A stretch of 38,801 nt of DNA from Candidatus Bathycorpusculum hydrogenotrophicum (GCA_009783705.1 WRCX01000013.1:1-38801), one strand, 5' to 3'; counted from the stretch's first letter, positions 6,072-37,248 are shown. Notes: generated from the letters alone by a model not told the origin. Program-made: numbers and translations.

Positions 6072-7949
6072 TTATGGATCTTTGTGGGTTTTATCAGCTG
6101 TTTCGGTGATTTTTACTGGCCAGCCGTTTTTTTCTATTAGGGTTTTTGCTTTTTTCTGTTGTTTGTCATCTATGGCTATGGCGTGACGTAGCTGGCTTGT
6201 TATGATGTTTTTTAGGCCTTTGATGTGTTTTATTTCTTCGAGCAACAGGGCGTCGTCGGTTTCAAGTACGGTTAGGGTGCGGATTTTTACGCGTCCGATT
6301 TTTAGTTGCCAATCATCTAAAGATCGTGCCACATTGTCGGGGAGGGGTTTGCCGCTTGCTTTTTGCAGGGTCTTTTTTATTTTTTGAGGTGCTATGTTGA
6401 GGTCATATGCGCGGATTATCGATTGGAAGTCGAGTTTGTAGATTGCGGCGTTGCCATCAATAGAGTGTTTGGTGAGGAATTTACTAAAGTGGGTTTCGTG
6501 TTCGATACGGCATTTAAGGCCGGATATAATTATGGGGTAGTCTGGCAGTACGAGGAGTTGGCCCTCATCGTTTAGGGGCCGGATAGTTTTGGTTGGGATT
6601 TGGTATTGGTTGATTAGTCCCAAGATCCAGGCGCCGAGTTGGGTTATGCGAAAACCGGCAATGCCGACGCAGAAGTCATCTTCAGCATATTTTGTGCGGG
6701 TAATGTTTTCAGTGTATGCGATATCGAGTATACCCAGGGTGCAAAGAAAGGACAAGATGAGGCCTATTAGGTGAGTTTCGCATTCACTCCAGTCGGGTTC
6801 ATAATCACCCTCATCAAAGTAGTCCTTATAGTGGGAGCTACGCACTACAATGTCGCAGTAGAGAAGTCGGCGCAGGAAATTGCCATAGAATGTTTGGGCG
6901 TGATTAGTCAAAGAGTCAAACGTTAAGAATTGTTCGGCAGGGCAGTTTTTTAGTAGGTCTATGATGGTTTTTCGGCATTTGTGCCACTCGATTTGTCCGC
7001 CGCGATCTTTGATTGCAATATGGGTGAGGTAGTGGATTTCAGGAATTTTATTTTCCGCCATATAGTCTTCAAATAATTGTTTGGCTATCTCGTTTGGGGG
7101 TTTAGATAGCAGGACAGGGGCTTTTTTGCCGGGGTGTACATAGCCGTCTGGGGCGATATCAAGTAATCCGGAGTTGGTAGCTAATATAAAGAGAGGTTGG
7201 GCAATTTTGAAGTCGTTTTTGTGTTTGACTTCTTTGGGAGTGCAAAATTTGCCGTTTTTGTCACATACTTCCTCAAAGTCAATTGTTTCGACGAGTTTGA
7301 CCAGTTTGGGGGGGGTGAGGTCAAATGTTTGGGGTTTTACTTTGAGACGTTCACTGGCGGCGAGTTTGACTAGGGTTTCAAAGTCGTTGAGGCGGTTTTC
7401 TCGGCAGATAAGATAATCGGTTTTTGTTGGATGATAGGGTGTGGAGTCGAATTTTATGGGGCCTACAAGGGGTTTTAAGACATCAAAAACCGTTTGGGGC
7501 ATGTTGCCGCCAGGAAAGAGAATGACGGTTTTGGTGTTTGGGAGGTTCCAGGTTAGGAGGTGGAGAAATTTTAGACGCATATAGTCATATGCGTTTGTTA
7601 GGTCTTTGGTGTAGCCGCCCGGGGCGGTGTATTCGAGTTTTAGGTTGTGTTTTTTTGCGTATAGCCGAGTGGTGGGGAGATATTCGCTACCGCATTGCAC
7701 CGCATATCGCAAAAAGTCTTGTTCGCACTCAGAGAAGCTGTTCCAGAGGTCTACTATGTTTTGGTTGTGGGCATAAAAGTTTGCGAGGTTTTTTATCATG
7801 TCTTTTTTTAGGACGTTGGTTTTGTTGTTAAAGAGACGTTTATGCAGTGCGCTTAGGCCGGTACCCTCGGCGCAACCATAGGGTGTGTCGTTGGTGCAGG
7901 TGTTTAGGTATTGTTCTAGATCAGCAAGTTTTGCGTTGGTTTCACTCAT
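6072..7949 (-). CDS. XPB-partner, helicase-associated (Helicase_C_3-like) protein
   Basis: The 625-residue soluble protein is the second gene of a two-gene operon; its ATG overlaps the stop of the XPB gene (ATGA at 7946-7949), so translation is probably coupled. About residues 470-570 contain GQLLVLPDYPIIISG, a GNAAIYKLDFQSIIRAYDLN segment and DNVARSLDDWQLKIGRVKI. This matches the pattern of the XPB/Ssl2 N-terminal (Helicase_C_3) domain, the same domain that opens the XPB protein next door. In mycobacteria a protein of this type is also encoded beside XPB. The N-terminal 350 residues look alpha-helical, possibly winged helices. No nuclease motif of the archaeal Bax1 type was seen. The likely role is partner or regulator of the helicase in DNA repair. 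Confidence 0.75.
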   Translation of the reverse strand: MSETNAKLADLEQYLNTCTNDTPYGCAEGTGLSALHKRLFNNKTNVLKKDMIKNLANFYAHNQNIVDLWNSFSECEQDFLRYAVQCGSEYLPTTRLYAKKHNLKLEYTAPGGYTKDLTNAYDYMRLKFLHLLTWNLPNTKTVILFPGGNMPQTVFDVLKPLVGPIKFDSTPYHPTKTDYLICRENRLNDFETLVKLAASERLKVKPQTFDLTPPKLVKLVETIDFEEVCDKNGKFCTPKEVKHKNDFKIAQPLFILATNSGLLDIAPDGYVHPGKKAPVLLSKPPNEIAKQLFEDYMAENKIPEIHYLTHIAIKDRGGQIEWHKCRKTIIDLLKNCPAEQFLTFDSLTNHAQTFYGNFLRRLLYCDIVVRSSHYKDYFDEGDYEPDWSECETHLIGLILSFLCTLGILDIAYTENITRTKYAEDDFCVGIAGFRITQLGAWILGLINQYQIPTKTIRPLNDEGQLLVLPDYPIIISGLKCRIEHETHFSKFLTKHSIDGNAAIYKLDFQSIIRAYDLNIAPQKIKKTLQKASGKPLPDNVARSLDDWQLKIGRVKIRTLTVLETDDALLLEEIKHIKGLKNIITSQLRHAIAIDDKQQKKAKTLIEKNGWPVKITETADKTHKDP

Positions 7950-9610
7950 GGCGGGGTGGCCTCATCGAGTATTTTGTAGGGGTAGCCTTGCTCGGTGAGA
8001 AAGAGTTGGCGGTGCATCGAAAAACTCTCCTCAGTGGTGTCGCGTGATACTAGGGTGTAGAAGTAGGCTTTGTTTTCGCCTTGTTTGGGGCGTAAAATGC
8101 GTCCGAGGCGCTGGGCTTCTTCTTGGCGGGAGCCAAAACTGCCGCTAACCTCAAGAGCAACATTTGCATCAGGAAGATCTATGGCAAAATTGGCGACCTT
8201 GGAGACTACCAAAACGGGAAATTCACCGCTTTTGAAGCGCTCATAGAGTGTTTCGCGGTCTCGGTTGGGGGCTTTGCCGGTGATGAGTGGAGCGTCGAGC
8301 TGTTCTGCGATGTGTTGGAGCTGCTCAAGATAGACTCCTATGATCAAGATGTGGGCGCCTTTGTGTTTTGTTAATAATTTGCGGATGATACCGAGTTTGT
8401 CGGGGTTTTCTGCGGCTATGCGGAATTTTTCGCGTTTAGGGGCGATTGCGTAGGGCATTTTTAATTCCTCAGGCATAGCGATGCGTACCTCAAAGCACTC
8501 GGCTTGGGCGATCCAGCCTTGGCTTTCAAGGATTTTCCAGCCCATTTCGTGGCGTTTGGGGCCAATTAGGGCAAATACGTCTGCTTCATGTCCGTCTTCA
8601 CGCACCAAAGTTGCAGTTAAACCCAGCCGACGCTTAGCCTGTAACTCGGCGGTTATGCGAAAAACTGGTGCAGGCAAGGTGTGTACCTCGTCATAGATGA
8701 TAAATCCCCAGTTGCGTTCCAAGAATAACTCGAAATGTTTCTGCACACCGGCTTTGTCTTTGGCACTTATGATTTGATAGGTTGAGACCGTCACGGGGCG
8801 AACATCTTTTTTCTCACCGCTATACTCTCCAATCAAGTCAGGATTCAAACCAGTTTTAGTAACTAACTCAGTTATCCATTGGCGCACTGCAGTGATTGAT
8901 GTTGTGAGAATCAAGGTCTCAGTTTTTAGCTCTGCCATAGCCGCAATTCCCACAATGGTTTTTCCCGCTCCGCAAGGTAAAACCACAACTCCATGATCAC
9001 CTCTGCCCCCAGCGCGAAAAGCACAAACCGCATCAAGCTGATAATCGCGGGGCTGGAAAACATCATGGCGTAGATCAACCATTAAGGCCGCCCCATCCGC
9101 ATACCCTGCCAGGTCCTCGGGTGGGAATTGGATATTCATAAGTGCCTGCTTGATATGACCCCGAAACACCGGATCAATCTTAACCCGATTATTTTTGGGT
9201 GTTTCGATAAAGAATTTAGAAACTGTTTTTTCTGCACATAGTTGCGCCATGATGTATGGGTCGTCAGTTTCAAGAAATAACTCGGTTTGTTCTTTGCATA
9301 TTCGGACCTTGCCATAGCGGTCGCTGATCTGGGTTAAACGTGCAACAACAGTTTCAGATATGGGATATTTACTATATTTTTCAAGGGTTGCTAAAATATC
9401 AGCACTCGTCACACCCGCACTGGCCGCATTCCAAAGAGAAATCGGAGTCATCTTGTAGGTGTGAATATACTCGGGAGATTTTACCATCTCGGCAAACGCT
9501 AAGAGCTCATCACGGGCAGATTCGTAGGATGTATTGTTTGTTTCAAGCAACAAGGTCATATCGCTTTGAACAATAAGCGGCTTGTAGACAGCCTCACTCA
9601 ATTCAGACAC
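7946..9610 (-). CDS. Bacterial-type XPB/Rad25 DNA repair helicase
   Basis: The 554-residue protein starts at GTG 9610. Residues 10-105 are the Helicase_C_3-type N-terminal domain (PLIVQSDMTLLLE, HTYKMTPISLWNAASAG). Residues 145-185 hold DLAGYADG and the PRDYQ Q-motif region. The SF2 helicase core has Walker A PCGAGKT (212-218), DEVH (307-310), motif III LTATL (331-335) and the XPB-specific RED motif (337-339). The C-terminal half has QEEAQRLGRILRP (motif VI). XPB unwinds or translocates on DNA in nucleotide excision repair. Sequence and domain order match my recall of the bacterial/mycobacterial XPB (about 540-550 residues) far better than the shorter archaeal XPB, which lacks this N-terminal domain. 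The operon with the 625-residue partner repeats the bacterial arrangement. Confidence 0.93.
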   Translation of the reverse strand: MSELSEAVYKPLIVQSDMTLLLETNNTSYESARDELLAFAEMVKSPEYIHTYKMTPISLWNAASAGVTSADILATLEKYSKYPISETVVARLTQISDRYGKVRICKEQTELFLETDDPYIMAQLCAEKTVSKFFIETPKNNRVKIDPVFRGHIKQALMNIQFPPEDLAGYADGAALMVDLRHDVFQPRDYQLDAVCAFRAGGRGDHGVVVLPCGAGKTIVGIAAMAELKTETLILTTSITAVRQWITELVTKTGLNPDLIGEYSGEKKDVRPVTVSTYQIISAKDKAGVQKHFELFLERNWGFIIYDEVHTLPAPVFRITAELQAKRRLGLTATLVREDGHEADVFALIGPKRHEMGWKILESQGWIAQAECFEVRIAMPEELKMPYAIAPKREKFRIAAENPDKLGIIRKLLTKHKGAHILIIGVYLEQLQHIAEQLDAPLITGKAPNRDRETLYERFKSGEFPVLVVSKVANFAIDLPDANVALEVSGSFGSRQEEAQRLGRILRPKQGENKAYFYTLVSRDTTEESFSMHRQLFLTEQGYPYKILDEATPP

Positions 9611-9817: not shown

Positions 9818-11082
9818 ATGAGTAGTTTGTGCAGGGTATCAGGATTGGTTTTGGTAGTATTGTTATTTTTTTGTTTAGTTGTTGAGACTTCTGTTTTGGG
9901 GCATCTGTGTCTCCGCCGGAGGAGAATGTTTGGGTTGAGATGGCCTCGATGCGTTATCCGCGAAGCTATTTTGGTACGGTGGTGGCGGATGGCAAAATAT
10001 ATGCGATTGGCGGCCTTGTTTCGCGGGGTGTGGGGTTGGTTACTGGTGCCGTTGAGAGATATGACCCACAGACTAATACGTGGATGACTCTGCCGTCATT
10101 GCCTACACCCCGATACGGAGGCGTCGCAGTGTGTTCTATGGGTAAAATTTACTATATAGGTGGGAGTACAACCTCCTCGGGTCTCTATGGAGTAAATGAG
10201 GTTTATGACCCCGCCACAAACCAATGGACAAGAAAGGCATCTATACCAACTCCCAGAAATGGTGCGTCTGCGTGTGTTGTGGACGGTTACATATATGTCA
10301 TGGGCGGATATGTGAATTCGGAGCTTTGTGAGGTTTATGATCCCATAGAGGATACTTGGTCGGTGTATGAGGGGCCTTGGCCGGAGGTGCCTTCTGATGG
10401 TGTGGTTTTTGATGGTCGGGAGTATGTTTGTGATGGGGTTGGGCTTAGGATTCACGATCTTGTTTTAGATAGTTGGATGGATGGAGCGAACGTGCCGCTT
10501 GGGCTTCATGGCCGGGGGGTTGTTGAGGTGGATGGGTTATTGTATGTCTTGGGAGGCTGCACCGAAACCTATAGTTTTCCTAATGCATTGCCTTATGAGT
10601 TGCGTGAGTATTTTAGTAAAAATTTTGAGATGTTTAGGCATATAGCGACTACTGAGCAGGTTCATTTTCAGAGGGTTTTTATGTATACTCCATTTGGTTA
10701 TGGCCGTATTGCGCCTGAGATTTCAGTTTTATCTCTTGAAGAAGGGGGCAGGTATGATCTTGAGACTGTGACCCTTGAGTATAGTTTGAATCATCCGGTT
10801 GTGTGGATGGGGTATTGCCTTGATGGTCAAGCTAACGTAACGGTTGGGGGTAATGTTTCTCTGTCGGGGTTGTCTAGTGGTCGCCATAGTGTGAGAGTGT
10901 TTGCAGAGGATAAATATGGAAACACTGGTGCCTCTGAAACCATAACCTTCACTGTTGCTAATGCGCCGCGGTCGCTGGTCTTTATCGGTGTTGTTACAGC
11001 TACTACTGTTGTGGTTGCGGCTGTTGTTGTCTGTTTGGGGTTGTCGTTTTTGAGAAAAAACCGACACAAAAAATCCACCTAG
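9818..11082 (+). CDS. Membrane-anchored kelch-repeat surface protein, frameshifted at 9898-9901
   Basis: Two frames form one gene. The first starts at ATG 9818 and encodes a signal peptide (MSSLCRVSGLVLVVLLFFCL, VVETSVLG). The second carries the body and would otherwise have to start at GTG 9907 with no signal. One extra G in the GGGG run at 9898-9901 would join them as ...SVLGASVSPPEENVWVEM. The body has about five kelch motifs (YAIGG, YYIGG, YVMGG, YVLGG with intervening YDPQTNTW, YDPATNQW, YDPIEDTW), then an Ig-like segment (SLSGLSSGRHSVRVFAEDKYG), then a TM helix near the end (VVTATTVVVAAVVVCLGLSF) and a basic tail. It is probably a beta-propeller displayed outside the cell. Either a sequencing error or a real inactivating frameshift explains the break. 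Confidence 0.8.
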
Positions 11083-11253: not shown

Positions 11254-12630
11254 TTGATTTTGCTTATGACTACAGCGCCCCCTGAAAAAGATACTTGGTA
11301 TCATGGGAAGCGTTTGCCGCCTATTGGGTTGATGTATATTGCGGGTGCGCTTGAGAAGGCTGGTTATACTGTTGAGATGTTGGATAATTATTTGGCCAAC
11401 AAGTCTCTGGAAGAAGTTAAGCAAACAATTAGGCAGACCAAACCGTTTATGGTGGGGATTACTTGTGGTTCAGCTACGTTTGCACGCTGCCTAGAAACCG
11501 CGCAGGCCATAAAAGAGGCCAAAGCAGATTGTGTGGTGGTGGTGGGCGGCTGGCATGCCTCCTATCTACCCGAGACACTTTTGGCACACCCACAGATTGA
11601 TTATGCTATTATCGGAGAAGGCGAGCGCGCCATAACCCAATTAGCAAACACCCTAACAGAAGGCAACACAGACAAAGCAACAACCATTCCAGGAGTGGCA
11701 TGTAGAACCTCAAGCGGGGTTATGGTTAATGCGCCGCAGTTCATTGAGGATATGGATGAAATCCCCTACCCGGCGAGGCATTTGTTGCCCCTTGAGCAGT
11801 ATGATCGCACCATAGAGTTCTTAGATGCTAAACCGGCAGATGTGATGAGTATTAGCCGGGGCTGTGTGTATAGTTGTGGGTTTTGTGAAACCCGCAAACT
11901 CTGGGGCAACATAAATCGCAGCTTTAGCCCCAAACGCGTCATAGGCGAAATCCAAGATCTACAGAACCGCTATGGCACAAAAGGCATCTACTTCATAAAC
12001 GATAATTTTACCCTAAACAAAGAAAAAACCAAAACGCTCTGCAACCTCATGATTGAGCAAAAGCTGGATTTAGAGTGGGTTTGTGACACCCGAGTGGATT
12101 TGGTCGATGATGAGCTCTTGGAGCTTATGAGCAAGGCAGGTTGCAGAGTCATCTGGTTTGGCGTGGAGTCGGGCTCACCTAAAATCCTAAAACGCATAAA
12201 CCGAAACACCACCCCCCAACAAGTCCAAACCGCCTTTAAACTATGCAAAAAACACCACATAAAAACCGCCTGCTCCTTTATGCTAGGCTTACCCGATGAG
12301 ACACTTGAGGATATGGAGGAATCACTCAAATTCGCCAAAAAAATCGACCCCGACTACTGCCAATTCAACATCTTTATCGCCTACCCCGATAGCAAAATCT
12401 ACAAAGAACTCCTCCAAAACAAAAACTACACCCAACTCGACGAGTACCTGCTAAGCGTCAAAAGCGACCAATACGACTATGAAGCCCTAAAAGCACTGCA
12501 GTGGCGCTTCTTTAAGAGCTTCCACATGAGACCCAAACAAATCCTAAAACGCGCCAAACGCGAAGGCATCCTAACCTTCACCAAAACCCGATTGCTACAT
12601 GGCACCAAAAAAGCCAACGGCACCGCCTAA
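11254..12630 (+). CDS. Cobalamin-binding radical SAM protein (paralogue 1)
   Basis: A 458-residue enzyme from TTG 11254; the first strand ILLMTTAPP supports this start. Residues 1-140 are a B12-binding Rossmann domain (PPIGLMYIAGALEKAGYTVE, VVVGGWHASYLPETLL, AIIGEGERAI). The radical SAM barrel has the cluster motif RGCVYSCGFC (C204, C208, C211) and later FGVESGSPKILKRINR. Such class B enzymes cleave SAM to a 5'-deoxyadenosyl radical and use the corrinoid for methyl transfer or other radical chemistry; the substrate cannot be told. It lacks the D-C motif after the third strand shared by the 16908, 28991 and 32922 copies. The aldo/keto reductase follows 19 nt downstream, so they are probably one operon. 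Base composition swings from G/T-rich at the 5' end to A/C-rich at the 3' end. Confidence 0.88.
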   Translation: MILLMTTAPPEKDTWYHGKRLPPIGLMYIAGALEKAGYTVEMLDNYLANKSLEEVKQTIRQTKPFMVGITCGSATFARCLETAQAIKEAKADCVVVVGGWHASYLPETLLAHPQIDYAIIGEGERAITQLANTLTEGNTDKATTIPGVACRTSSGVMVNAPQFIEDMDEIPYPARHLLPLEQYDRTIEFLDAKPADVMSISRGCVYSCGFCETRKLWGNINRSFSPKRVIGEIQDLQNRYGTKGIYFINDNFTLNKEKTKTLCNLMIEQKLDLEWVCDTRVDLVDDELLELMSKAGCRVIWFGVESGSPKILKRINRNTTPQQVQTAFKLCKKHHIKTACSFMLGLPDETLEDMEESLKFAKKIDPDYCQFNIFIAYPDSKIYKELLQNKNYTQLDEYLLSVKSDQYDYEALKALQWRFFKSFHMRPKQILKRAKREGILTFTKTRLLHGTKKANGTA

Positions 12631-16907: not shown

Positions 16908-18380
16908 TTGAAGGCTCATGTGGCTTTGGTTAATCCGCCTTATCCATCGGAAGCGGCGCAATCGGTTTTTCTGCCTTTGGGGATTGGTTATTTGGCAGCA
17001 GTTCTTGAAAAAGAGGGATACCCTGTAGATGTGGTGGACTGCCAAACCAAAAAATATACGCCCCAAGCTTTGGAGGAGAAATTTCGTAGCCTAAATCCCG
17101 ATATTGTAGGGATCACCTCAGCTACGGTTACTTATTTGCCGGCTTTGGAGGTTTTAAAGTCTGCTAAGGTTGCGGTGCCCAAGGCGCTCACGCTTATGGG
17201 TGGGCCGCATGTGAGTGTACTTGATCAGCAAGCCCTCTCCGATAGTCCTGATTTAGATATTGTGGTGCGTGGTGAGGGGGAGCAAACCATGCTGGAATTA
17301 GCGCGGTTTGTCTCTGAACAGGGGCTAATGTTTGGTCTTAGTGCCATTCAGGGCATTACCTATAGAAGTAATAATCAGACCTTTAGCACCACCGATCGTG
17401 CGTTTCTACCCGATATTGATAATCTGCCGCACCCTGCGCATCATCACTTTGACACCAATATGTACAAACTCTTTGGCGTCAACTATATGCCCATAATCAC
17501 CAGCCGTGGCTGCCCCAGTGCATGCACCTTTTGTTTAGCCTCCAAGATGTGCGGACACAAATTTAGAGGAAGAAGCCCCAGTAAAGTTGTAGATGAGCTG
17601 GAATGGTTACGCGATGAGTTTGGCGCAGGTGCATTCGCATTCTACGATGACACCTTTACCTACGATTTGCAACGCGCCTATGCGATTTGTGATGAGATGC
17701 AAAAACGCAAAATCAACTTACCCTGGGATTGCCGCACCCGAGTAGACCGAGTCTCTAGGGAGCTTTTGGCAAAGCTCAAAGCCACCAACTGCCAGCTAAT
17801 CCACTTCGGCGTCGAATCAGGTAGCCAAGAAATGCTCAAACTTATGCGCAAAGGCACCACCGTGGAACTAAACGCCCAAGCCATCCAGTGGGCCAAAGAA
17901 GCCGGCATTTCCGTTGCCGTCTCACTTGTTATTGGCTATCCCACTGAAACACCCGAGATGCTTGAGCAGACCATCGAGTTTCTCTACAAAACCAAACCCG
18001 ACTATGTCTATATGTGTGAAGCAGTCCCCTACCCCGGCACCGAGTTAGCCTATTTCATAAAAGAACTCGGATTAGAAGTGGATGCCAACTGGAACCAATA
18101 CCGTGAAGAAACCCAAATCTTCAAAAATACCTTGTTACCGCTTGAAAAGTTGGAAGAAGTCAAAAAAGAATTCTTTGACAACTATTTCTCCTACAGTTAC
18201 TTTTTACGTAAAAAAGTAAAGAGGGACTTTTACAGCCAAATCATGGCCCGTGCAGCACTCAACCATCGAATATGGAACAACAAAACACTCCGCTGGGGAT
18301 TTAAAAAAATCAGCAAACTTCGCACCCCCAAAAAAAGCAAAGGTGGCTACAGCACCTCAGAACAAGATCAACAAACATAA
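16908..18380 (+). CDS. Cobalamin-binding radical SAM protein (paralogue 2)
   Basis: A 490-residue protein from TTG 16908, with a GGGGGA run ending about 10 nt upstream. The B12-binding domain (1-170) shows VALVNPPYPS, LGIGYLAAVLEKEGYPVDVV followed by DCQ, and MGGPHVSVLD, RGEGEQTMLEL. The radical SAM cluster is SRGCPSACTFC (C202, C206, C209), and FGVESGSQEMLKLMRKG follows. The C-terminal tail (FDNYFSYSYFLRKKVKRDFY) is of the kind seen in BchE/hopanoid-methylase-like class B enzymes. The DCQ after the third strand and the tail are shared with the 28991 and 32922 copies, marking one subfamily. No canonical DxHxxG is present, as usual in this class. Composition shifts from G/T-rich to A/C-rich along the gene. 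Confidence 0.88.
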   Translation: MKAHVALVNPPYPSEAAQSVFLPLGIGYLAAVLEKEGYPVDVVDCQTKKYTPQALEEKFRSLNPDIVGITSATVTYLPALEVLKSAKVAVPKALTLMGGPHVSVLDQQALSDSPDLDIVVRGEGEQTMLELARFVSEQGLMFGLSAIQGITYRSNNQTFSTTDRAFLPDIDNLPHPAHHHFDTNMYKLFGVNYMPIITSRGCPSACTFCLASKMCGHKFRGRSPSKVVDELEWLRDEFGAGAFAFYDDTFTYDLQRAYAICDEMQKRKINLPWDCRTRVDRVSRELLAKLKATNCQLIHFGVESGSQEMLKLMRKGTTVELNAQAIQWAKEAGISVAVSLVIGYPTETPEMLEQTIEFLYKTKPDYVYMCEAVPYPGTELAYFIKELGLEVDANWNQYREETQIFKNTLLPLEKLEEVKKEFFDNYFSYSYFLRKKVKRDFYSQIMARAALNHRIWNNKTLRWGFKKISKLRTPKKSKGGYSTSEQDQQT

Positions 18381-18589: not shown

Positions 18590-19669
18590 TTGACACAGAA
18601 TGGTCCTTTACTTATGACTTCTTGGCGGGCAACAGGTGCCTGTAATGCTCGTTGTCTATATTGCAATGTTGATGCTACGGGTGCGCATGCGCCAAGAGAG
18701 ATGACGACTCAAGAAGCGTTTCATCTGGTTGATGAAGTTCATAAATTTGGTGTTCGATGGTTTGGTATAAAGGGTGGTGAGCCGCTAACCCGGCCTGATA
18801 TTTTTGAGATTGTGCTGTATGCGAAAAATAAGGGTCTAAATGTTTGTCTGCTAACCAATGGTGCATTTGTTGATGGTTCAATCTATGATAACTTGGTTAA
18901 AAATCAGGTTTGGTCCTCAGTAAGTATTGATGGCCCTGAGGAAATCAATGATCAGCTACGCGGTAAAGGATCCTACAAGAAAGCTTTGGCGGCTATTGAG
19001 AAACTCGCTGCAGGGAAAATTCTAAATGGGTTAGCTTGTGCGATAACTACCATTAACTATGAACACCTCGACCATGTTGCAGAATTGGCTGAGAAATACA
19101 AGGCGAATTTTGTTTGGTATAATCATTTGGTGCCCAGCGGCAGAGCTAAATCTACCATGGACCTCACTCCAACTCCGGATCAGTATGAGTGGACGCTTAA
19201 TCACATCTGGGATATTACAGAAAAATACAAAAACAAATTTGAGGTTCATGTCCACTGTCCCCACTTCGCCAGAGTCGTCAAACAACGCCTATCTGAGGAC
19301 GAATTTAATCACTGGTATGAAAAAGAGTTCCATGGCAAATGTACCTACTTTGCCTTTGGCGGCTATCTTAGCGTAACTGAGAACGGCGATTTAATCCCCT
19401 GCTTCTACACTGACCTCCAGCCCAACGAACCCATGATGCTGGGAAACATACGCAACAAAACCCTAACCACCGCATGGGAAGATGTCAAAGCCTCACCCTA
19501 TTACAACAAATTCCAAGACCGAAACGTCCTCAAAGGCAAATGCGGCGTATGCGAATACAGAGAAATCTGCGGCGGATGCCGAAACCGAGCCTACGCCTAC
19601 ACAGGCGACATAGCCGAATCCGACCCCGCATGCAACTATATCCCCAAAGCACTACGCAAACAAGAATAA
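18590..19669 (+). CDS. Radical SAM/SPASM protein
   Basis: A 359-residue enzyme. The cluster motif GACNARCLYC (C18, C22, C25), GIKGGEP (SAM-binding GGEP) and VSIDGP are classic. The C-terminal SPASM domain carries GKCTYFAFGG, GDLIPCFY and a Cys-rich CGVCEYREICGGCRNRAYA plus DPACNY, enough ligands for auxiliary 4Fe-4S clusters. The pattern resembles AhbC/AhbD (alternative haem synthesis) and peptide-maturase families; no short precursor peptide was found next to it. I use TTG 18590 because it is in frame and follows GAGGG. A strong GGAGGGGAGGG at 18544-18554 instead serves an out-of-frame ATG at 18559 whose 28-codon ORF ends at 18645, overlapping this start; a small leader ORF is possible. ATG 18614 is a shorter alternative. 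Confidence 0.87.
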   Translation: MTQNGPLLMTSWRATGACNARCLYCNVDATGAHAPREMTTQEAFHLVDEVHKFGVRWFGIKGGEPLTRPDIFEIVLYAKNKGLNVCLLTNGAFVDGSIYDNLVKNQVWSSVSIDGPEEINDQLRGKGSYKKALAAIEKLAAGKILNGLACAITTINYEHLDHVAELAEKYKANFVWYNHLVPSGRAKSTMDLTPTPDQYEWTLNHIWDITEKYKNKFEVHVHCPHFARVVKQRLSEDEFNHWYEKEFHGKCTYFAFGGYLSVTENGDLIPCFYTDLQPNEPMMLGNIRNKTLTTAWEDVKASPYYNKFQDRNVLKGKCGVCEYREICGGCRNRAYAYTGDIAESDPACNYIPKALRKQE

Positions 19670-19949: not shown

Positions 19950-22672
19950 TTAGCGTTTTCTGAGCAGTAATACGATGGCTATTAGAGATAGGACTATGGC
20001 GATGATTATGCCGATAAAGGCTGGTAAGATGTAGGCGTCAGCAGCGGATCCGGGGGATTGGGAGGGGTTTTGGGTTGGAGAGTTGGTTTCGCCTACTGTG
20101 AAGTAGGTTGTTGATGCTGAGGGTCCGTAGGCTTCGGAGCCTGCAAAGGATGCATAGATTTGGTAGGTGCCTGTGATCTCAGGTTCAAAGGTGAAGGCAT
20201 AGTTGCCGCTTGCGTCGCTTAGGGTTTCGCCTAGGATGATATAGTTGTTGTTGGGATCAATGGCAGCAAAACTAACGGGGACACCTGTGATGTTTAGAGG
20301 GGCGGGGGCTTGTTTGTAGAGGTGTTGCATCCAAGCGGTTTGGTCGGCGTCTGAGATTGCGGGGGTGCCTTTGAGTGAGAAGTCGGGTTTGTCGTTGGTG
20401 TTGCGTCGGCCAGATTCTGTTTGGTCGGTGACTGTGCCGGTAAGGGTGATTTTGCCGCCAAGGAGTGATGAGCCTTGGGGTGCTGAGACTGTGGTTGCGC
20501 TTGGGCCGCGGCCAAAGCAGTAGAGTTGATTGTCATAGGCATTGAGGGCGATGAGGCGCCCGTCGGCTAGAACAAAGTTGCTACCGGCATTTCCAGAGGG
20601 CATCATAACGCCATAGACTGGAAAGTTCCATAGTCGTGCGCCATTTGATGCGTTAATACACTGTAAGACATTTCCACTTTCTAGGACTGGACCAGGAGAG
20701 TGTCGACCGGTGCCGATGTAGATTCGGCCATCATAGGAAATTGCGCCCACATTCATAGGATAGGTGCCAAAGACCGAATCGCCCAGATATTCATTAGCTG
20801 CAGTAAAGTTCCACATATAGCCTGTTCTCAAGTCAATACCAATCAAAACACCGCCATATCCGCTGGATAGAAGCATATTGCCGTATCGGTTAGTATTGAA
20901 ACCATAGTAGTCTGCTTGTGGTACAGTGACATTCCAGAGTTGGGTACCGGATTTAGCGTCAAATCCCCAGCGTTGAAGCAGTCGGGTGGACTGGTAGACC
21001 ACAGTTGCGGTTTCTTTGTCGATTGAGTACACACCTGTTAGGGTGATGGAGGCGTTGCTCTCAGTTGATGAGAAGGGAGGGGAGAAGGTATTGCGCCAGA
21101 GTTCTTTGCCTTCGTTGCCTTTTGAGAGATCAATCGCAAGGACAAAAGCTGGAACGACTCCGCGTTCATCGTTGCGTCCAGGTGTTGCAAATATAGCGTA
21201 TTCGCCTTCGCGTATAGCTTGAAGAGTGGCGGTCTGGTTTAGCAAGGTGTTGGATGGACCGGAGATGTTGGGAATAGAAAAGTTGCCGGTGATCATCAGA
21301 TTGCCGTCATGGACTATGTTGTATGCAACAGCGGTGCCCCAAAACGGAGTGGTAGATCCTCCCCCGCCTCCACCTGAGGGTCGCCACTGCCAAGCATCGG
21401 TTCCGTTTATTCCACTAACCATGGTACCTGCAGAAGTGTTCCAGATGGTCATGTAGGGTTGGGTACCTATGTTAGTCACGTTGTAGCGAAGTATGCTTCC
21501 GTCCATACCATAGACTGGTGTGCCACCTGTGGAGACGTTGGCTATGTAGGTTACATGTTGGAGGGTGTGTGCGTCAAGGATGTCCCAGATGGTTCCAAAA
21601 CTGTTTGATGTGAGGGATGTTTTATTTACGTTGGAAGCCCCGCTGTTTACGGTTAGGGTCAAATCAGGGTTTAGGGTTACGTTGGATAGTCGAACTATGT
21701 CAGGCAGGTTGGCGTATGTGACGGGTCGGTAGAGGTAGGGAAAGCCGCCATTTTGGTTAGGTGAGGAGTAATCGTAGACCTGGCCAAATGTTGGAGCGAT
21801 ATCGGTATAGTTTTCGTAGAGGGTTTCGCCAGTGTAGAGGTCAACGGCAGCCCAGCCTTGTGCGCTAGCGCCTGTGTAGCGGGGTTGGTAGTGGATTTTA
21901 CCGTCGATAACAACGGCAGTAAAGGCTAGACCTTGATAGTGGTATTGTGCAAAGCCAGAAGTGCCATAGCGGTTGTCCATTAGGCCGCCTACCCAGTAGG
22001 GTTTTGTCCACAGGATATGGGCGCTGCCCGGACCGGGACTGTAGCTGAAGTAGGAGGAGCCTTCGTTTGCGCTGCCTTGGGGCCATTGGTTAGCTGCACC
22101 GCCGATCCAGTTGCCGGTGAGGGTGTAGTAGAGGTGCATGTTGCTTGAGATGGGGCGGGTCCAGTAATCTTGGGGAACAGGGGCATCGTTTCGGGTGGGA
22201 ACGGGTTGGGTTTGGACTTGGAAAGTGATAAGGGGGCTGAAAGCTTCGCTGTAGACGTTTTGGGTATCGGCGCCAATGTTTACAGTTTGGGAGGGGAAAA
22301 ATGCTTGGGCGGTGTATGTGCCGGTTTTTTCGGTGGCCTGAATATAACATAGGCTGCACCGGTGGGATCGGTTCGTTCGATGGGTATGGTGGTGTTGGCG
22401 CCATCGGGGTCGGTTATGATGATCTGTAGGTTTGACCAGCCGCGTTCGCTCTGAATTGGGCCTGTGCCATACGGGGGTATATCTGCAGTCCAGGTGAGTA
22501 TGATTAGTTCTTGGTTTAAGCCTACGCTGGGGCTGTTTACGGCGATGTAGATATAGGAGTTGAAATAGGCGGTTTGTGCTGAAGCACTCATAAGAATTGT
22601 CGATACTGCGATTGTTAACAGCAAGAAAACTGAAATCACAGAAAAAAGATTTTTTTTATTTTTTATTTTCAT
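19950..22672 (-). CDS. Large PQQ-like beta-propeller surface protein, frameshifted near 22340
   Basis: The body frame (19950 to beyond 22139) and the N-terminal frame (ATG 22672) join into a protein of about 907 residues. N-terminal: signal peptide (LFSVISVFLLLTIAVSTILM, SASA) and an Ig-like domain. The frames break where the paralogue at 34452 reads VFVPKVEGNYTAQAF; here the two frames give ...AAYVIFR and ATEKTGTYTAQAFFPS, consistent with one lost base next to GG at about 22341-22346. The real body continues upstream of ATG 22139 (QDYWTRPISSNM). Propeller blades include AAVDLYTGETLY and IGIDLRTGYMWNF. A C-terminal Ig-like domain (GPSATTVSAPQGSSLLGGKI), a TM helix (ILPAFIGIIIAIVLSLIAIV) and RKR end the chain. 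Probably displayed outside; true PQQ binding is not shown. Confidence 0.8.
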
Positions 22673-22962: not shown

Positions 22963-25491
22963 ATCATCAAAAAAATCTTTGTAACCATCCTTTTTGCAAT
23001 CCTCCTCCTTAGTTCCGGAGTTGCCTCAATCTCACTCTATGGACAAACACAAGCCGCAACCACCAGCCGCTTAGATCAATACGAGTGGCCCCAATTCCAA
23101 GGCGACTCCGCCTATACCCGCTTCTCTGCAGGTCCAGCCCCCAACACATCAACCATAACCTGGAAAGCAGATATACCCAACATCCAACCCTACATAGCCG
23201 CCTTTAATGGCAAAATCTATGTTACCAACCACACCCATGTCTTTGCACTCAACCAAGATGGCGACATTGTCTGGCAAACCAAACTCCCAGAAGAAACACA
23301 TTGGCCCATAGCCTACAAAATTGACAGCACACACATGATAGTTGAGAGTTACTGTCTCAACCCCCAAACCGGAGATATACTTTGGAAAAGCCCCGATTTT
23401 AACACCTACACAGGCATCTTTAACACCAATGTCTACAGTCCAGAACAGAAAATGTTCTACACCAAAGTCAACTCCACCATTGTTGCTTGGGACTTCAGCA
23501 ATCCTACAAAGCCGCCCTCAGTAGCGTGGACGACCTACATTCGCGGCGGCGGCATAACAGGCATCGGCATCACCTATGGAGATGGAAAAATCTTTACCGG
23601 ATCGTTCCAAAACATGCAATATGCCCTTGACGCTAAAACCGGCAACATCATTTGGAGTACCCCCACCAAAGGCCCCATGATATTTACAGGCGCATATTCC
23701 AATGGACTGTACTTCAAGGGCGGAAGTGATGACAACACCATGTATGCCTTCAACGCCACTAATGGCAACATTGTCTGGCGATACCGGCCTGATACAGATG
23801 GCTATTTCACCACGGGATGCGCAGTCGCCTATGGATTGGTGTATGAGATGAACAAAGATGGTTATCTCTATGCCTTTGACATGTACACAGGTGAAGTGGT
23901 CTGGAAATACAAAGGCCCAAATGACACCCTGATGTGGCCAGGCATGCCCTCAGTAGCAGATGGCAAACTCTACATGACCACCGGCCAAACAGCTCAATAC
24001 AACGCCGAGAGCGGCATATCCGAGTTTTCCTGCATAAATGCCTACACCGGCAAAAAAATCTGGTCCCTAAACATAGAAGTCCTGCCACCCCGAGAATCAG
24101 TGGCCATCGCCTACGGCACACTCTACCTTATCCCCGGAGACGTAACAACAGCGGTAGATACCATCTCAGGTAATGAGTACACAACCGTTAATCAAATTTG
24201 GGCCATGCAGAACACTGGTGAACAAAATAACATACCCCCAACAGTGAGTGATTGGCCGCAGTGGCGTGCAGACGCAACCCACTCCTCCACCGCAGAAATC
24301 GGACCAAAAAATCTCACGGTAGAGTGGCGGTTTAGCACAAAAGGCGCCGTTAGTTCCTCACCCTCAATAGCAGATGGCGTACTCTACGTGGGTTCACAAG
24401 ATAAAAACATCTATGCCCTAAACGCCTACACCGGCGATCTACTTTGGAAATTTGCCACCAACAGCCCCGTAGAATCCTCACCCGCAGTAGCCAATGGCAA
24501 AGTCTACACTGGAGGAGATGATGGCTATGTGTATTGTCTAAATGCAAAAACAGGCAAACTCTTGTGGAAGACCTTTGTCAATGGCGATCTACCCTTCACA
24601 TTTGGCAATTTAGTCTTAAAATCCTCCCCCGCGGTAGTGGATGAGGTGGTTTATGTGGGTTCCCTAGACAACTACCTATATGCGCTAAATGGCAATACGG
24701 GCGATATTAAGTGGCAAACAAAAGCCAAGGGCCCCATAGAATCCTCCCCTGCTGTAGCTGATGGTGCAGTCTATTTTACCGCCGAAGAACCCAACGCAGG
24801 TGCACTCTACAAACTAGATGCCGCAACCGGAGAAATCATGTGGAAATATGAGATTCCCTATCGTATATCGTTTGGCGGCGGCACCCAAATGCTGGGTTCA
24901 CCCTCCGTTGCAGAGGGCCTAGTGTTTGCGTCCTCTAATTGGGGGGATTACTACTGTATCGAAACCAGTAGCGGCAACATGCTGTGGCACTTCTCAAACC
25001 CCACCGCCACAGAATTTATTGTATCCTCACCAATCTATGTCAAAGACGGCACCGTGCTACTAATTGACAAATTCGATCTAGCATGTGTCGATGTTTCTAA
25101 CGGCTGGACAAAGTGGACCACCTACACAGGTGATGAACTCTACGTCTCCCCCTCATATGCCGATGGCAAAGTCTACATGGCAACCAGCCAACGTCATATC
25201 TTGATCTTTGATGCCGCAAATGCCGGTGCCAAAATCGCAAACGTCACCCTCCCCTCAAGCACCTGGTCCTCACCTACAATAGCTAACGGTAAACTCTACA
25301 TAGGTTGCAATGACTGGAATATCTACTGCTTCAAAGAAGACACCCCCGAACCTCTAACAACCCAAACCCCACCCCCAAACAGACCGGCAATAATATCATC
25401 AGAAACAATCTTTGGTGTCATAATCACAGCAATCATAATCTTAGCTACCATAGCAATAATCTTCAAAATTTACAGTCACAACAAAAAATAA
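22963..25491 (+). CDS. Double PQQ-like beta-propeller surface protein with non-canonical start
   Basis: The frame is open and clearly coding from about 22963, well upstream of the first ATG at 23335. It includes a signal peptide (IIKKIFVTILFAILLLSSGV, ASISLYGQTQAA) and the opening propeller motif YEWPQFQGDSAYTRFSAGPA. No ATG, GTG or TTG occurs in frame; the best start is ATC 22963 or 22966, just after GGGGGTAAG. Two propellers are seen: the first to about residue 425 (blades such as YALDAKTGNIIW, YAFDMYTGEVVW), the second opened by a fresh DWPQWRADATHSSTAEIGP and containing YALNAYTGDLLW, YCLNAKTGKLLW, YALNGNTGDIKW. A C-terminal TM helix (IIAFG-type, IFGVIITAIIILATIAIIF) anchors it with a short basic tail. 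About 842 residues in all. Divergent from the 22672 propeller gene. Confidence 0.82.
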   Translation: MIKKIFVTILFAILLLSSGVASISLYGQTQAATTSRLDQYEWPQFQGDSAYTRFSAGPAPNTSTITWKADIPNIQPYIAAFNGKIYVTNHTHVFALNQDGDIVWQTKLPEETHWPIAYKIDSTHMIVESYCLNPQTGDILWKSPDFNTYTGIFNTNVYSPEQKMFYTKVNSTIVAWDFSNPTKPPSVAWTTYIRGGGITGIGITYGDGKIFTGSFQNMQYALDAKTGNIIWSTPTKGPMIFTGAYSNGLYFKGGSDDNTMYAFNATNGNIVWRYRPDTDGYFTTGCAVAYGLVYEMNKDGYLYAFDMYTGEVVWKYKGPNDTLMWPGMPSVADGKLYMTTGQTAQYNAESGISEFSCINAYTGKKIWSLNIEVLPPRESVAIAYGTLYLIPGDVTTAVDTISGNEYTTVNQIWAMQNTGEQNNIPPTVSDWPQWRADATHSSTAEIGPKNLTVEWRFSTKGAVSSSPSIADGVLYVGSQDKNIYALNAYTGDLLWKFATNSPVESSPAVANGKVYTGGDDGYVYCLNAKTGKLLWKTFVNGDLPFTFGNLVLKSSPAVVDEVVYVGSLDNYLYALNGNTGDIKWQTKAKGPIESSPAVADGAVYFTAEEPNAGALYKLDAATGEIMWKYEIPYRISFGGGTQMLGSPSVAEGLVFASSNWGDYYCIETSSGNMLWHFSNPTATEFIVSSPIYVKDGTVLLIDKFDLACVDVSNGWTKWTTYTGDELYVSPSYADGKVYMATSQRHILIFDAANAGAKIANVTLPSSTWSSPTIANGKLYIGCNDWNIYCFKEDTPEPLTTQTPPPNRPAIISSETIFGVIITAIIILATIAIIFKIYSHNKK

Positions 25492-25696: not shown

Positions 25697-26725
25697 GTGT
25701 TTGATATCATCGCTTGGTTAACCCAAAGTACCCTCCACTTAGGTATTACAACAGCTGTAGCAGTGCTTGTTTTTGCGATTGTGTTGGATTTGATTTTAGG
25801 GGATCCCTCACCCAACTATCCCGACAAGTTGGCGTTTAAGTTACATCCTACGGTGTTGATGGGTAATTTCACTAAAAAAATTGAACCCTACTTCAAAAAT
25901 CCTGATCCTAAAATGGAAAAGTTTCTAGGGGTCTTGCTGGGCTTAACAGTTATTGTTGCGTTTGCCGCACCCACATTTTTTGGGTTATGGGCGGTCTATA
26001 CGTTTTTGCCGAGCTATCTCAATATATTGTTCTATGCAGTCATTGGCATAATATTACTAAAAATGACTATCTGTATCAAACTTGAAACAGACTGGGCTAA
26101 AGCAACTGCTACGGCTATCAATCAAGATGACGCGGCAGAGACTAAAAAATATGTTCATTTCTCGCGCCGGGACAGTAAAAACCTCAACGCCACCCAGATG
26201 GGCAGTGCTGTTATAGAATCGATGTCTGAGAACCTAATTGACTTTAAACTCTCACCTATGATGAGCTTTGCATTATTTGGAGTCACAGGCGCGATAGCGT
26301 TTCGCGCCATAAACAACCTAGATGGTATGGTGGGGTTTAAGACCAAAGAGCACATAAACACCGGCTGGTTTAGCGCCAATCTCGATAACTTTGTTAATTA
26401 TATCCCTACGCGTCTAACGGCATTGTTAATGATTGTTGCTGCAGCCATTTTGCGTATGGATGCCAAAAATGCGTGGCGAGTCGCTCGGCGCGACCATAAA
26501 AAAACGCCTAGCCGCAATCATGGCTGGCCTATGGCCGCCGTTGCAGGAGCACTTCGTATTCAACTTGAAAAACCCGGCCAATACATCTTGGGCGATCCAC
26601 AGGAGCCGCTAACAGGAGACAAGGTCTTAGGTGCGCTAAAGATCCGTGATGTGACCATTGTGCTCTGGGGCTTGTTTTGTGTGTTGGTGTTGGTTTTGGT
26701 GCGGCTCTGGTTTTTCCCGATGTAG
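25697..26725 (+). CDS. cbiB: Adenosylcobinamide-phosphate synthase CbiB/CobD
   Basis: A 342-residue inner-membrane enzyme that attaches the aminopropanol arm to adenosylcobyric acid in B12 synthesis. Diagnostic motifs: LDLILGDP (30-37), HPTVLMGN (50-57), SRRDSKNLNATQMGSAVIES then MSENLID, GAIAFRAINNLDGMVGFK, GWFSANLDNFVNYIPTRLTA and NHGWPMAAVAGAL. About five TM helices. It starts at GTG 25697. The B12-binding radical SAM gene at 26774 begins 48 nt downstream on the same strand, so cofactor supply and a cofactor user may be co-transcribed. No other cobalamin biosynthesis genes are in the window. Confidence 0.95.
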   Translation: MFDIIAWLTQSTLHLGITTAVAVLVFAIVLDLILGDPSPNYPDKLAFKLHPTVLMGNFTKKIEPYFKNPDPKMEKFLGVLLGLTVIVAFAAPTFFGLWAVYTFLPSYLNILFYAVIGIILLKMTICIKLETDWAKATATAINQDDAAETKKYVHFSRRDSKNLNATQMGSAVIESMSENLIDFKLSPMMSFALFGVTGAIAFRAINNLDGMVGFKTKEHINTGWFSANLDNFVNYIPTRLTALLMIVAAAILRMDAKNAWRVARRDHKKTPSRNHGWPMAAVAGALRIQLEKPGQYILGDPQEPLTGDKVLGALKIRDVTIVLWGLFCVLVLVLVRLWFFPM

Positions 26726-26773: not shown

Positions 26774-28219
26774 ATGCGTGTTTGCTTAATTAATCCTCCG
26801 CGAATTCAGCCCAAGGTTTGGGGTAAACCCAACGTTTTTCCACCCATAGTCATGGTATCAGTGGCAGCAGTGCTTGAGAGAGATCATCATCAAGTCAGCA
26901 TCATTGATGCACCCACTGAGGGATGGGATAATTTGCTTGAGCTGGATGCAACCAAGTACCGGGTGGGGTTGAGCACCGAAACAATTGCCAAGCGCATCCA
27001 AGGCTTCAAACCCGATATGGTTATTGTGGAGATTCCTTTCTCAGGTTGGTCTAAAGCCGCCTATGAAGTTATCACGCTTACAAAAAATATAGATAAAACC
27101 ATCACCGTTGCACTGTTTGGTCTCCATCCCACGGCGCGTCCCAAGGAGTGTTTAGAGGACAGTGAAGCAGACTTTGTTGTAATAGGTGAACCCGAAATCA
27201 CCATCAAAGAATTGGTTGGGGCATTGGAGAAAAAAACTGATTTGGGTGGTATTGATGGGGTGGGCTATAGAAAAAACGGAGGCATACAACTAAACCCCAA
27301 GCGCGCCTTTATTGAGGACCTGGATACTCTGCCTATGCCGGCTAGGCATCTCTTACCGATGCAAATCTATGCCGATGCGGTTAAGGAAAATCCTCTGCGT
27401 GGAGAAATCACCCAACCCAACACCATAGTCATCACCAGCCGTGGTTGTCCTTTTAGCTGTGTTTTTTGCACTCATGCCATTGTGTGGGGTAAAAAATGGC
27501 GCGCGCGAAGCCCAAAAAATGTGGTTGATGAACTGGAGCATCTCATCAAAACCTACAACATCAAACAAATCGACTTTGCCGATGACAACCTAACCTGGGA
27601 TCCTCAGCGTATGGCAACTATATGTGACCTAATTGTGGAGCGTAATCTGCGCTTTGAGTGGTTCACCCCAAATGGTGTTCGTGCGGATACTCTAAGTGAG
27701 GAATTGTTGCGCAAGATGAAGCGCGCGGGATGTAAAAAAATCCGCGTCGCCCCTGAATCAGGCGTGCAACGTATCGTCTCTGAGGTGGCCAAGAAGAATT
27801 TAGATCTAAAAAAAGTCGAAGCCGCCATTGTAGCCTGTAAAAAAGTGGGAATAAAAGTGGGCGTCTTTTTTGTTATGGGGTTAATCGGGGAGACCAAAGC
27901 CGATATAGAACAAACTATTCAATATGCCTACAAGCTCAAGGGGTTGGGTGCGGAGAGTTTTATTTTTAGTATAGCTATGCCAGTTTATGGCACCGAATTC
28001 TATGAACAAACAAAAGCAGGAGGATATTTGCGCGAAGACTTTTGTGACTATGCTCTAGCTGCCACCGAACCTCTAATTGAAACCGCAGAGTGGACCGCGC
28101 AAGACCTAATGGAGCTATGCATGAAAGCCAATGCCATAAACCGCACCCTAACCTACAAAAAACTGCTCACCGCCATGCGCAATCCACAAAGAACTCTACG
28201 AATGCTACATGGAAAATAA
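26774..28219 (+). CDS. Cobalamin-binding radical SAM protein (paralogue 3)
   Basis: A 481-residue protein. B12-binding domain: VCLINPPRIQ, VMVSVAAVLERDHHQVSIID, VALFGLHPTARP, VVIGEPEITI. Cluster: TSRGCPFSCVFC (C225, C229, C232), followed by FADDNLTWDP and a VAPESGVQRIVSEVAKK helix-strand. It differs from the 16908-type copies: an insert after the third strand (TEGWDNLLELDATKYRVGLS), no DCQ, and a tail ending LTYKKLLTAMRNPQRTLRML. The KYRVGLS...I.KRI.GFKPD segment is typical of class B enzymes annotated as B12-binding domain radical SAM or hopanoid-associated proteins; the substrate is unknown. The upstream neighbour is cbiB at 48 nt. Confidence 0.88.
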   Translation: MRVCLINPPRIQPKVWGKPNVFPPIVMVSVAAVLERDHHQVSIIDAPTEGWDNLLELDATKYRVGLSTETIAKRIQGFKPDMVIVEIPFSGWSKAAYEVITLTKNIDKTITVALFGLHPTARPKECLEDSEADFVVIGEPEITIKELVGALEKKTDLGGIDGVGYRKNGGIQLNPKRAFIEDLDTLPMPARHLLPMQIYADAVKENPLRGEITQPNTIVITSRGCPFSCVFCTHAIVWGKKWRARSPKNVVDELEHLIKTYNIKQIDFADDNLTWDPQRMATICDLIVERNLRFEWFTPNGVRADTLSEELLRKMKRAGCKKIRVAPESGVQRIVSEVAKKNLDLKKVEAAIVACKKVGIKVGVFFVMGLIGETKADIEQTIQYAYKLKGLGAESFIFSIAMPVYGTEFYEQTKAGGYLREDFCDYALAATEPLIETAEWTAQDLMELCMKANAINRTLTYKKLLTAMRNPQRTLRMLHGK

Positions 28220-28990: not shown

Positions 28991-30376
28991 TTAGTTTCTT
29001 TTAAGTTTGAGTTTTATGTTGGCGACTAGGTGCATACCTACAGTTATGGCGGTGTAGATTTTGAAGCGCCGGCGTTTGTCCATGAAGTATGCGCGTCTTA
29101 GGTAGTAGTGGTGGAATGCACTTTCGCGGAGCTTTCCGAGTTCTTTCATGCTTAGTTGGGGGGTCTCAAAGATGGGACGGGTAGTGTCGTATTTGTCAAA
29201 GTCGGTGACACGCAACCAGCCATTGGCGATGACTTGGTCGTAGAGGGGTGTGCCGGGGAAGGGAGTTGCGACGTTGTAGAATCCTACTGCATCGGGGGCG
29301 ATTTTTTCGACGAATTTTATGGTTTTCCAGGCACTTTTTTTGGTTTCGCCGGGGAAGCCTAGGATTACGTTGGGTACGGGTTTCATGCCGGCTTCGCGGA
29401 CCCAGCCCATGACTTTTTCGGTTAATTCGGGGGTGATGCCCTTTTTCATGGCGTCTAGAACTTGTTGGGTGCCTGATTCGATGCCGCACCAAAATGAGAT
29501 GCAACCTGCTTCTCTCATTTTTATGAGAAGTTCTTTGGTGACCATGTCGACGCGGCTACCGCAGTTCCACTCGATTTTTAGGTTGCGTTTTATGATCTCG
29601 CTACAGAGTTCTTCTACGAGGGCTTGGTCGACTGTGAAGGCGTCGTCGCAGAAGGTGAATTTGGTTTTGCCATAGGTTTTGTAGAGGTATTCTAGTTCGT
29701 CAACTACGTTTTGGGCGCTTCGCATGCGGTATTGTCGTCCGTGCATACGTACGGTGCAACAGAATTCGCACCAGTACACGCAACCACGGCTCATGGATAG
29801 GTAGAGGACATCTTCGTATTCTTTGAATTTTTCCATGGGCCAGAGATGGCGTGCAGGGAAAGGTAGTGAATCCAGGTCCTCGATATAGGGTCGATCGGGA
29901 GTGCGGACAATTTTGTTGTTTTTTCGGTAGGTGAGGCCTAGGACGTCATCGTAGGGTTTGTTGGCTTCGAGGTGCTGGACCAATTCGAGGATGGTGGCTT
30001 CGCCTTCTCTTCGGATAACCAGGTCGAGTTCGGGGCATTCTTCTAGGGCGTGGTCGTCCCAAAATGTTACATGGGGTCCGCCTGCAAGGGTTGTGCAGTT
30101 TGGAAGGGCCTGTTTTGTGGCTTTGATGAGGTTTAGGCCGGATTTGTAGGTGAGTGTGGAGGAGGTTATGCCCACTATGTTGGGTTGGCGTTTTTGGATT
30201 TCTTGGGTAAATTGCTCTAGGGAGAGTTTTTCAACTTGACAATCTATGACATCAACTTTGTATCCGTTTTTTTCTAGGACTGCGGCGAGGTAGCCTAAAC
30301 CCAAAAGCGCAAAGGGCCAGTGCATAACAGCACCCACGGGTGCTGCAGGGTTAACTAGGGTTATGTGGGGTTTCAT
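28991..30376 (-). CDS. Cobalamin-binding radical SAM protein (paralogue 4)
   Basis: I start it at ATG 30376 (MKPHITLVNPAAP), because the 32 residues added by the longer frame to 30472 are unlike any B12-binding domain; this gives 461 residues. Motifs: LGLGYLAAVLEKNGYKVDVI then DCQ, LAGGPHVTFWDD, REGEATILEL (Arg replaces the usual Gly before EGE), cluster SRGCVYWCEFCC (C199, C203, C206, plus an extra Cys at 207), WCGIESGTQQVLDAMKKG. The tail HHYYLRRAYFMDKRRRF belongs to the same subfamily as the 16908 and 32922 copies. Transcribed opposite to its neighbours, 51 nt after the QueG-like gene. Confidence 0.87.
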   Translation of the reverse strand: MKPHITLVNPAAPVGAVMHWPFALLGLGYLAAVLEKNGYKVDVIDCQVEKLSLEQFTQEIQKRQPNIVGITSSTLTYKSGLNLIKATKQALPNCTTLAGGPHVTFWDDHALEECPELDLVIRREGEATILELVQHLEANKPYDDVLGLTYRKNNKIVRTPDRPYIEDLDSLPFPARHLWPMEKFKEYEDVLYLSMSRGCVYWCEFCCTVRMHGRQYRMRSAQNVVDELEYLYKTYGKTKFTFCDDAFTVDQALVEELCSEIIKRNLKIEWNCGSRVDMVTKELLIKMREAGCISFWCGIESGTQQVLDAMKKGITPELTEKVMGWVREAGMKPVPNVILGFPGETKKSAWKTIKFVEKIAPDAVGFYNVATPFPGTPLYDQVIANGWLRVTDFDKYDTTRPIFETPQLSMKELGKLRESAFHHYYLRRAYFMDKRRRFKIYTAITVGMHLVANIKLKLKRN

Positions 30377-30550
30377 TTCTGCTTCACACCAACTTGCCTC
30401 TTGATGGGAACGCTTTATGCTTAAACATTTCGCATCTCCACAAACCAGCCACCCAGACTTAGCGCGACTCACAAAGATAAAAGAGAAGTATGTTAAAACT
30501 GGGGGGGTTTCTGCGGAACATCTTTAGCTTATCTTGGTTTGTATAGAAAT

Positions 30551-37060: not shown

Positions 37061-37248
37061 ATAATTTGCGTAAAGTCACCCGACACCACTTTTAAATCTG
37101 AAACCACCATAAACATCACCTAATATCAAAAACAAAGAAGACAAAAGAGCATCCGAGGTTTTGTTTAAAGATCACAGTTGTTGAGTTTACGTAAACTTTA
37201 TTATGGTTTTAACCCGTGATAAACTCTCAATTAAGAGGAGGATTATCG

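Follow-up and report, generated by a model that had tools for sequence, protein, structure and literature searches.

The p52 subunit of human TFIIH holds the helicase XPB in place and drives it. In eukaryotic TFIIH, XPB and p52 (Ssl2 and Tfb2 in yeast) are coupled through a clutch, an established pairing of homologous domains, one on each protein (PMC6422496). Bacteria also encode XPB, and the enzyme of Mycobacterium tuberculosis, which has the XPB-specific RED motif, shows 3'-5' helicase and DNA-dependent ATPase activity (PMC3353954). The same study, published in 2012, noted XPB with the corresponding N-terminal domain (Helicase_C_3) in some archaea (Halobacteriaceae), and stated that neither a homolog of p44 or p52 nor any XPB complex was known in bacteria (PMC3353954). 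Archaeal XPB is organized differently, with a DRD domain and without Helicase_C_3, and its gene overlaps that of Bax1, a nuclease of the DUF790 family. Here we analyzed a stretch of 38,801 nucleotides (referred to as the window) from Candidatus Bathycorpusculum hydrogenotrophicum (GCA_009783705.1 WRCX01000013.1:1-38801), whose genus comprises Bathyarchaeia of termite guts as well as MAGs obtained from soils, sediments, and digesters (PMC10684969).

The original prediction placed a bacterial-type XPB helicase in this window, and this identification is borne out: the protein scores 805.5 bits over its full length against the NCBIfam model NF045503 ("DNA repair helicase XPB", cut-off 610), and it has the N-terminal Helicase_C_3 domain, the GAGKT, DEVH, and other SF2 motifs, and RED (Table 1). 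To this we add that the ORF lies on the minus strand. Pfam places ResIII at residues 185-336 and ERCC3_RAD25_C at residues 361-550, and finds no match to XPB_DRD (PF18458). The alignment used to compare the motifs consisted of nine XPB copies, both bacterial and archaeal. Judged by its alignment with the yeast and human proteins, the N-terminal domain is the equivalent of the eukaryotic XPB NTD, which docks p52. The window XPB is thus like bacterial XPB, such as that of M. tuberculosis (PMC3353954), in its full-length score, its N-terminal domain, and RED, and many bacteria likewise have an adjacent partner gene with Helicase_C_3; it differs in that it comes from an archaeon of the Thermoproteota in which XPB-Bax1 is present too.

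Table 1. Features of the XPB and partner genes; positions are counted from the first letter of the window.
Feature	Position	Strand	Evidence
p52-like partner, 625 aa	6072..7949	minus	AlphaFold model, Foldseek top matches p52/Tfb2, profile matches to p52
C-terminal beta-beta-alpha-beta module of partner, residues 583-615	6105..6203	minus	Secondary structure of AlphaFold model
Clutch-like Helicase_C_3 domain of partner, residues 466-582	6204..6554	minus	Pfam E 1e-10, above curated score; profile aligned to human p52 308-444
ATGA overlap, XPB stop / partner start	7946..7949	minus	Sequence
Bacterial-type XPB helicase, 554 aa, GTG start	7946..9610	minus	NF045503, Pfam domains, XPB trees
RED motif, XPB R337-E338-D339	8594..8602	minus	Invariant in 9-copy alignment
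DEVH box, XPB residues 307-310	8681..8692	minus	Invariant in 9-copy alignment
Walker A GAGKT, XPB residues 214-218	8957..8971	minus	Invariant in 9-copy alignment
XPB N-terminal domain Helicase_C_3, residues 12-134	9209..9577	minus	Pfam E 2.8e-33; aligns with yeast and human XPB NTD

A second, archaeal XPB-Bax1 pair had been suggested as something to look for elsewhere in the genome, and it was found on contig C62 (G000:C62:3269-6194), where a canonical XPB of 457 residues, with an XPB_DRD domain and without Helicase_C_3, is followed by and overlaps the gene for a Bax1 of 521 residues (DUF790, E 2.7e-118). The two pairs are alike in the SF2 helicase core and in the overlap of helicase and partner genes; they differ in the domains flanking that core and in the partner itself, as the window partner has no match to DUF790 by Pfam. 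The neighbors of the window pair are archaeal, as originally described for Alba, S26e, and others, and we additionally identified Elf1 and archaetidylinositol-phosphate synthase. Within the window there was no sign of DNA-repair neighbors. The rest of the window includes genes for five B12-binding radical SAM proteins (11254-12630, 16908-18380, 26774-28219, 28991-30472, and 32922-34337), a SPASM radical SAM protein (18590-19669), a HemN-like radical SAM protein (37216-38553), CobD/CbiB (25697-26725), and beta-propeller proteins of the kelch and PQQ types (9907-11082, 19950-22139, 23335-25491, and 30539-32881), as well as an 851-aa ORF on the minus strand (34452-37007) with no Pfam match at E 1e-5.

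The partner gene had been predicted to overlap XPB by ATGA and to carry the same Helicase_C_3 domain near its C-terminus, and both features are present (Table 1). When the AlphaFold model of the partner (mean pLDDT 76, 13 sequences) was compared with the PDB by Foldseek, TFIIH p52 and yeast Tfb2 were the best matches (E 3.8e-7 for 8ebs_D, 598 columns, TM 0.23-0.29); next came XPB via its NTD, and the first non-TFIIH match had an E-value of 0.34. Similarly, a Chloroflexi partner model (AlphaFold, pLDDT 80) matched p52/Tfb2 at the top (E 3.1e-10) and then the XPB NTD, with the next unrelated match at E 0.13. In both models the alignment to p52 covers some 590 columns, and there is no competing fold. 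Against p52, the partner models have low TM-scores (0.15-0.34) and a large rmsd, as would be expected if the domains are oriented differently, and identity in the fold alignment is about 10%. With such TM-scores, the match of the N-terminal part, where p52 has its winged helices, is weak evidence.

Profile comparisons point in the same direction. A profile of 13 partners matched the XPB NTD (E 1e-6) and human p52 (E 2e-5, p52 residues 308-444), and a second profile, of 14 partners, had human p52 as its best match (E about 5.8e-8), although the two alignments share many rows and the tests are thus not independent. The region matched is the clutch of human p52, which docks XPB, and the match extends beyond the clutch (p52 306-399) to residues 444-447. 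A clutch domain homologous to the XPB NTD is therefore present in the partner by Pfam, profiles, and fold alike, and the C-terminal module that follows it in the model may possibly be the equivalent of the p8-binding domain of p52. A profile drawn mostly from Bathycorpusculum gave only weak RPA32 winged-helix matches against the PDB; a wider alignment was required. The Pfam Tfb2 family (PF03849) has no match in the window partner, and matches 8 of the 13 partners over the last part of the model, all below the cut-off (best relative 25.2 of 34.5 bits), so we use the term p52-like for this protein and do not assign it to the Tfb2 family. In profiles and predicted fold the partner looks like TFIIH p52/Tfb2. 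The prokaryotic pair thus resembles XPB-p52 (Ssl2-Tfb2) in a homologous domain common to helicase and partner, and differs in being, as seen, a module of two genes whose partner stays under the Tfb2 cut-off. The open-access literature that we searched contained no description of a prokaryotic p52-like protein; as bacterial XPB is already known, the p52-like reading of its partner is provisionally the new part of this work.

The association of the two genes recurs across many phyla. Among the 80 best-scoring loci, which are not a random sample of bacteria, a gene with a Helicase_C_3 domain lies near XPB in 46, is absent from 20, and could not be sought in the remaining 14 for want of flanking sequence. 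Four Chloroflexi loci (L038, L054, L077, and L092) have two successive partner-domain genes downstream of XPB.

Bacterial-type XPB is common in bacteria, being found in 305 of 393 Spirochaetota genomes and in 32 of 398 genomes of the phylum of the Clostridia genome G482 described below (E <= 1e-60). In the sample from the archaeon's own phylum, 6 of 398 genomes have a copy over the NF045503 cut-off, all of them Bathycorpusculum, i.e., 1 of 163 genera. Eleven of the 32 genomes of the genus carry a copy over this cut-off, and the window XPB is 82% identical to that of another Candidatus Bathycorpusculum contig (L037). An EF-2 tree built from 26 genomes of the genus has a branch, supported at 100/99, that separates 11 genomes, 8 of them carriers, from 15 with no carrier among them, a distribution explained by one acquisition in the ancestor of the clade and a few losses or bin gaps. 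Archaeal XPB was found in 19 of the 32 genomes and in 10 of the 11 carriers of the bacterial type. The one carrier without it is G003, and about 12 of the 32 genomes show neither type. G003 groups with G028 in the XPB and partner trees but takes a basal position in that of EF-2, a hint that the pair was exchanged within the genus.

Elsewhere among archaea, bacterial-type XPB is also present in Thorarchaeota, Methanolliviera, and Methanophagales, in copies about 54-55% identical to the window XPB; in the Asgard phylum, 41 of 227 genomes have a match over the NF045503 cut-off. In three Thorarchaeota loci, XPB is followed 1.7-3.6 kb downstream by a partner-like gene. Two Thorarchaeota loci (L065 6692-10126 and L082 6692-11676) consist of the bacterial-type XPB, a small ORF, a clamp-loader-like ATPase (named by eye) on the opposite strand, and a p52-like gene. 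Haloarchaeal plasmids (e.g., L019 4117-6117) carry XPB-like helicases that are about 35% identical to the window XPB and distinct from both types.

Most bacterial XPB copies are about 50-58% identical to the window XPB. The closest relative of both genes is found in an uncultured Clostridia genome (G482), with an XPB of 74-76% identity and an adjacent full-length partner of 42-46% identity, next to an Rpn-like fragment and a HAD phosphatase. In the XPB tree (69 rows), the genus forms one clade (100/96) with G482 as its sister (100/100); their joint stem is long (0.62), and the deep branches that place this clade among bacteria are weakly supported. In the partner tree, the genus again forms one clade (100/98) with G482 as sister (100/100), and another Clostridia genome (G415) comes next (97/95, with a long-branch warning). 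The two trees agree on the main splits within the genus, which indicates that the pair travels together. When yeast and human XPB were included in a small tree of the helicase core (with long-branch warnings), the window XPB fell among the bacterial-type sequences, separate from canonical archaeal XPB. Its identity to the C62 XPB of its own genome is 26.5%, and the placement within archaeal XPB that would have spoken against the original prediction did not occur. Of the two origins which that prediction had offered for the pair, an early branch finds no support, while inter-domain transfer as a unit is favored by the patchy distribution, the Clostridia relative of both genes, and the retained XPB-Bax1. 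Based on these sequence comparisons, that XPB and its partner moved between domains as a unit is well supported.

We propose that the ancestor of one Bathycorpusculum clade received a bacterial XPB module of two genes in a single event, the donor being most likely a lineage of Clostridia or an unsampled relative of such a lineage, and that the module was kept beside the native XPB-Bax1; the direction is our inference. The opposite direction, in which the stem lineage of Bathycorpusculum had received the pair from another bacterium and later passed it to the G482 Clostridia, seems unlikely to us. It would suit the long joint stem, and of the two members of the G482 family with XPB, only G482 has the close type; the copy in G448 is distant (60%, a fragment of 294 residues) and is not sister to that of G482, so G482 may itself be a recipient. 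Against this, G482 lies outside the archaeal clade and not within it in either tree, and the next relative of the partner is from another Clostridia. The G482 contig is short (5.4 kb) and could conceivably be mis-binned, but its GC content (59.5%, with 61% at the ribosomal L2 locus of G482 and 46% in the window) points to a bacterium of high GC rather than to contamination from an archaeon; this L2 locus matches the Pfam L2 model (E 5e-39), as does that of its family-mate. An assembly chimera or a mis-binned bacterial contig on the archaeal side, which was named at the outset as grounds for doubt and could be suspected of a draft genome in 107 contigs, can be dismissed with near certainty, given that the pair occurs in 11 separate assemblies, that it sits on a 126-kb contig in G024 with the same neighbors on both sides (Alba 99% and S26e 98% identical to those of G024), and that its neighbors are archaeal and its GC matches the window.

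Vertical retention, with bacterial-type XPB present in archaea from early on and since lost from nearly all of this phylum, would accord with the copies in Thorarchaeota, Methanolliviera, and Methanophagales, and the AU test does not reject a tree that unites the genus, G482, and those other archaeal copies in one clade (p-AU 0.174). However, the gene would have to have disappeared from 162 of 163 sampled genera and from most of the genus itself, and the window XPB is far closer to the Clostridia copy than to those other archaeal copies; we consider vertical retention very improbable. Other sources were tried and rejected. A spirochaete donor, to which a first tree (94 SH-aLRT) and the termite-gut setting pointed, gave at best 57% identity in 393 genomes, well under that of G482, and the deep branches are weak; an IMG/VR scan for viral carriage returned only distant helicases (23-34% identity), and plasmids only copies of at most 52% identity.

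As for function, we suggest that the C-terminal clutch-like domain of the partner and its homolog at the N-terminus of XPB form a pair, as in p52 and XPB of TFIIH; one Helicase_C_3 domain on each of two proteins encoded by overlapping genes makes the same clutch the simplest reading. The helical N-terminal part of the partner may anchor XPB, to DNA or to other proteins, or stimulate it, and the complex would open DNA around lesions, with excision by other nucleases. The clutch heterodimer, the stimulation of the ATPase, and the repair role are inferred here, the last of these from the XPB family, to which nothing in the window adds. The partner could instead be an independent DNA-binding or regulatory protein that has only Helicase_C_3 in common with XPB and is not p52-like in function, in keeping with its N-terminal 460 residues, which have no accepted Pfam match, and with Tfb2 matches below the cut-off. 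We think this has a minor share of the probability in view of the long Foldseek alignments to p52 in two models, without a rival fold, and of the adjacency to XPB across many phyla. That the pair is an anti-phage defense module rather than a repair one is less plausible still: the patchy distribution would fit, and PADLOC matches XPB (best PbeA, E 2.8e-27), but these matches cover only part of the helicase core, the partner has none, and no defense genes are among the identified neighbors. A single bacterial acquisition of a clutch-coupled module of XPB and p52-like partner is thus the overall explanation that we favor with reasonable confidence.

Whether XPB and its p52-like partner are more generally a widespread prokaryotic two-protein machine, homologous to XPB-p52 of TFIIH and found across many bacterial phyla and in Thorarchaeota and, through transfer, in Bathycorpusculum, we regard as evenly balanced. 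If true, TFIIH would have inherited a ready-made helicase-plus-clutch module and not the helicase alone, and the p52-like partner would bear on the origin of the XPB-p52 unit. Such a partner would also supply prokaryotic XPB with a mechanism and provide a minimal two-protein model of the TFIIH translocase. Bathycorpusculum represents a natural case of both modules coexisting, in which XPB-partner and XPB-Bax1 may be compared in one lineage.
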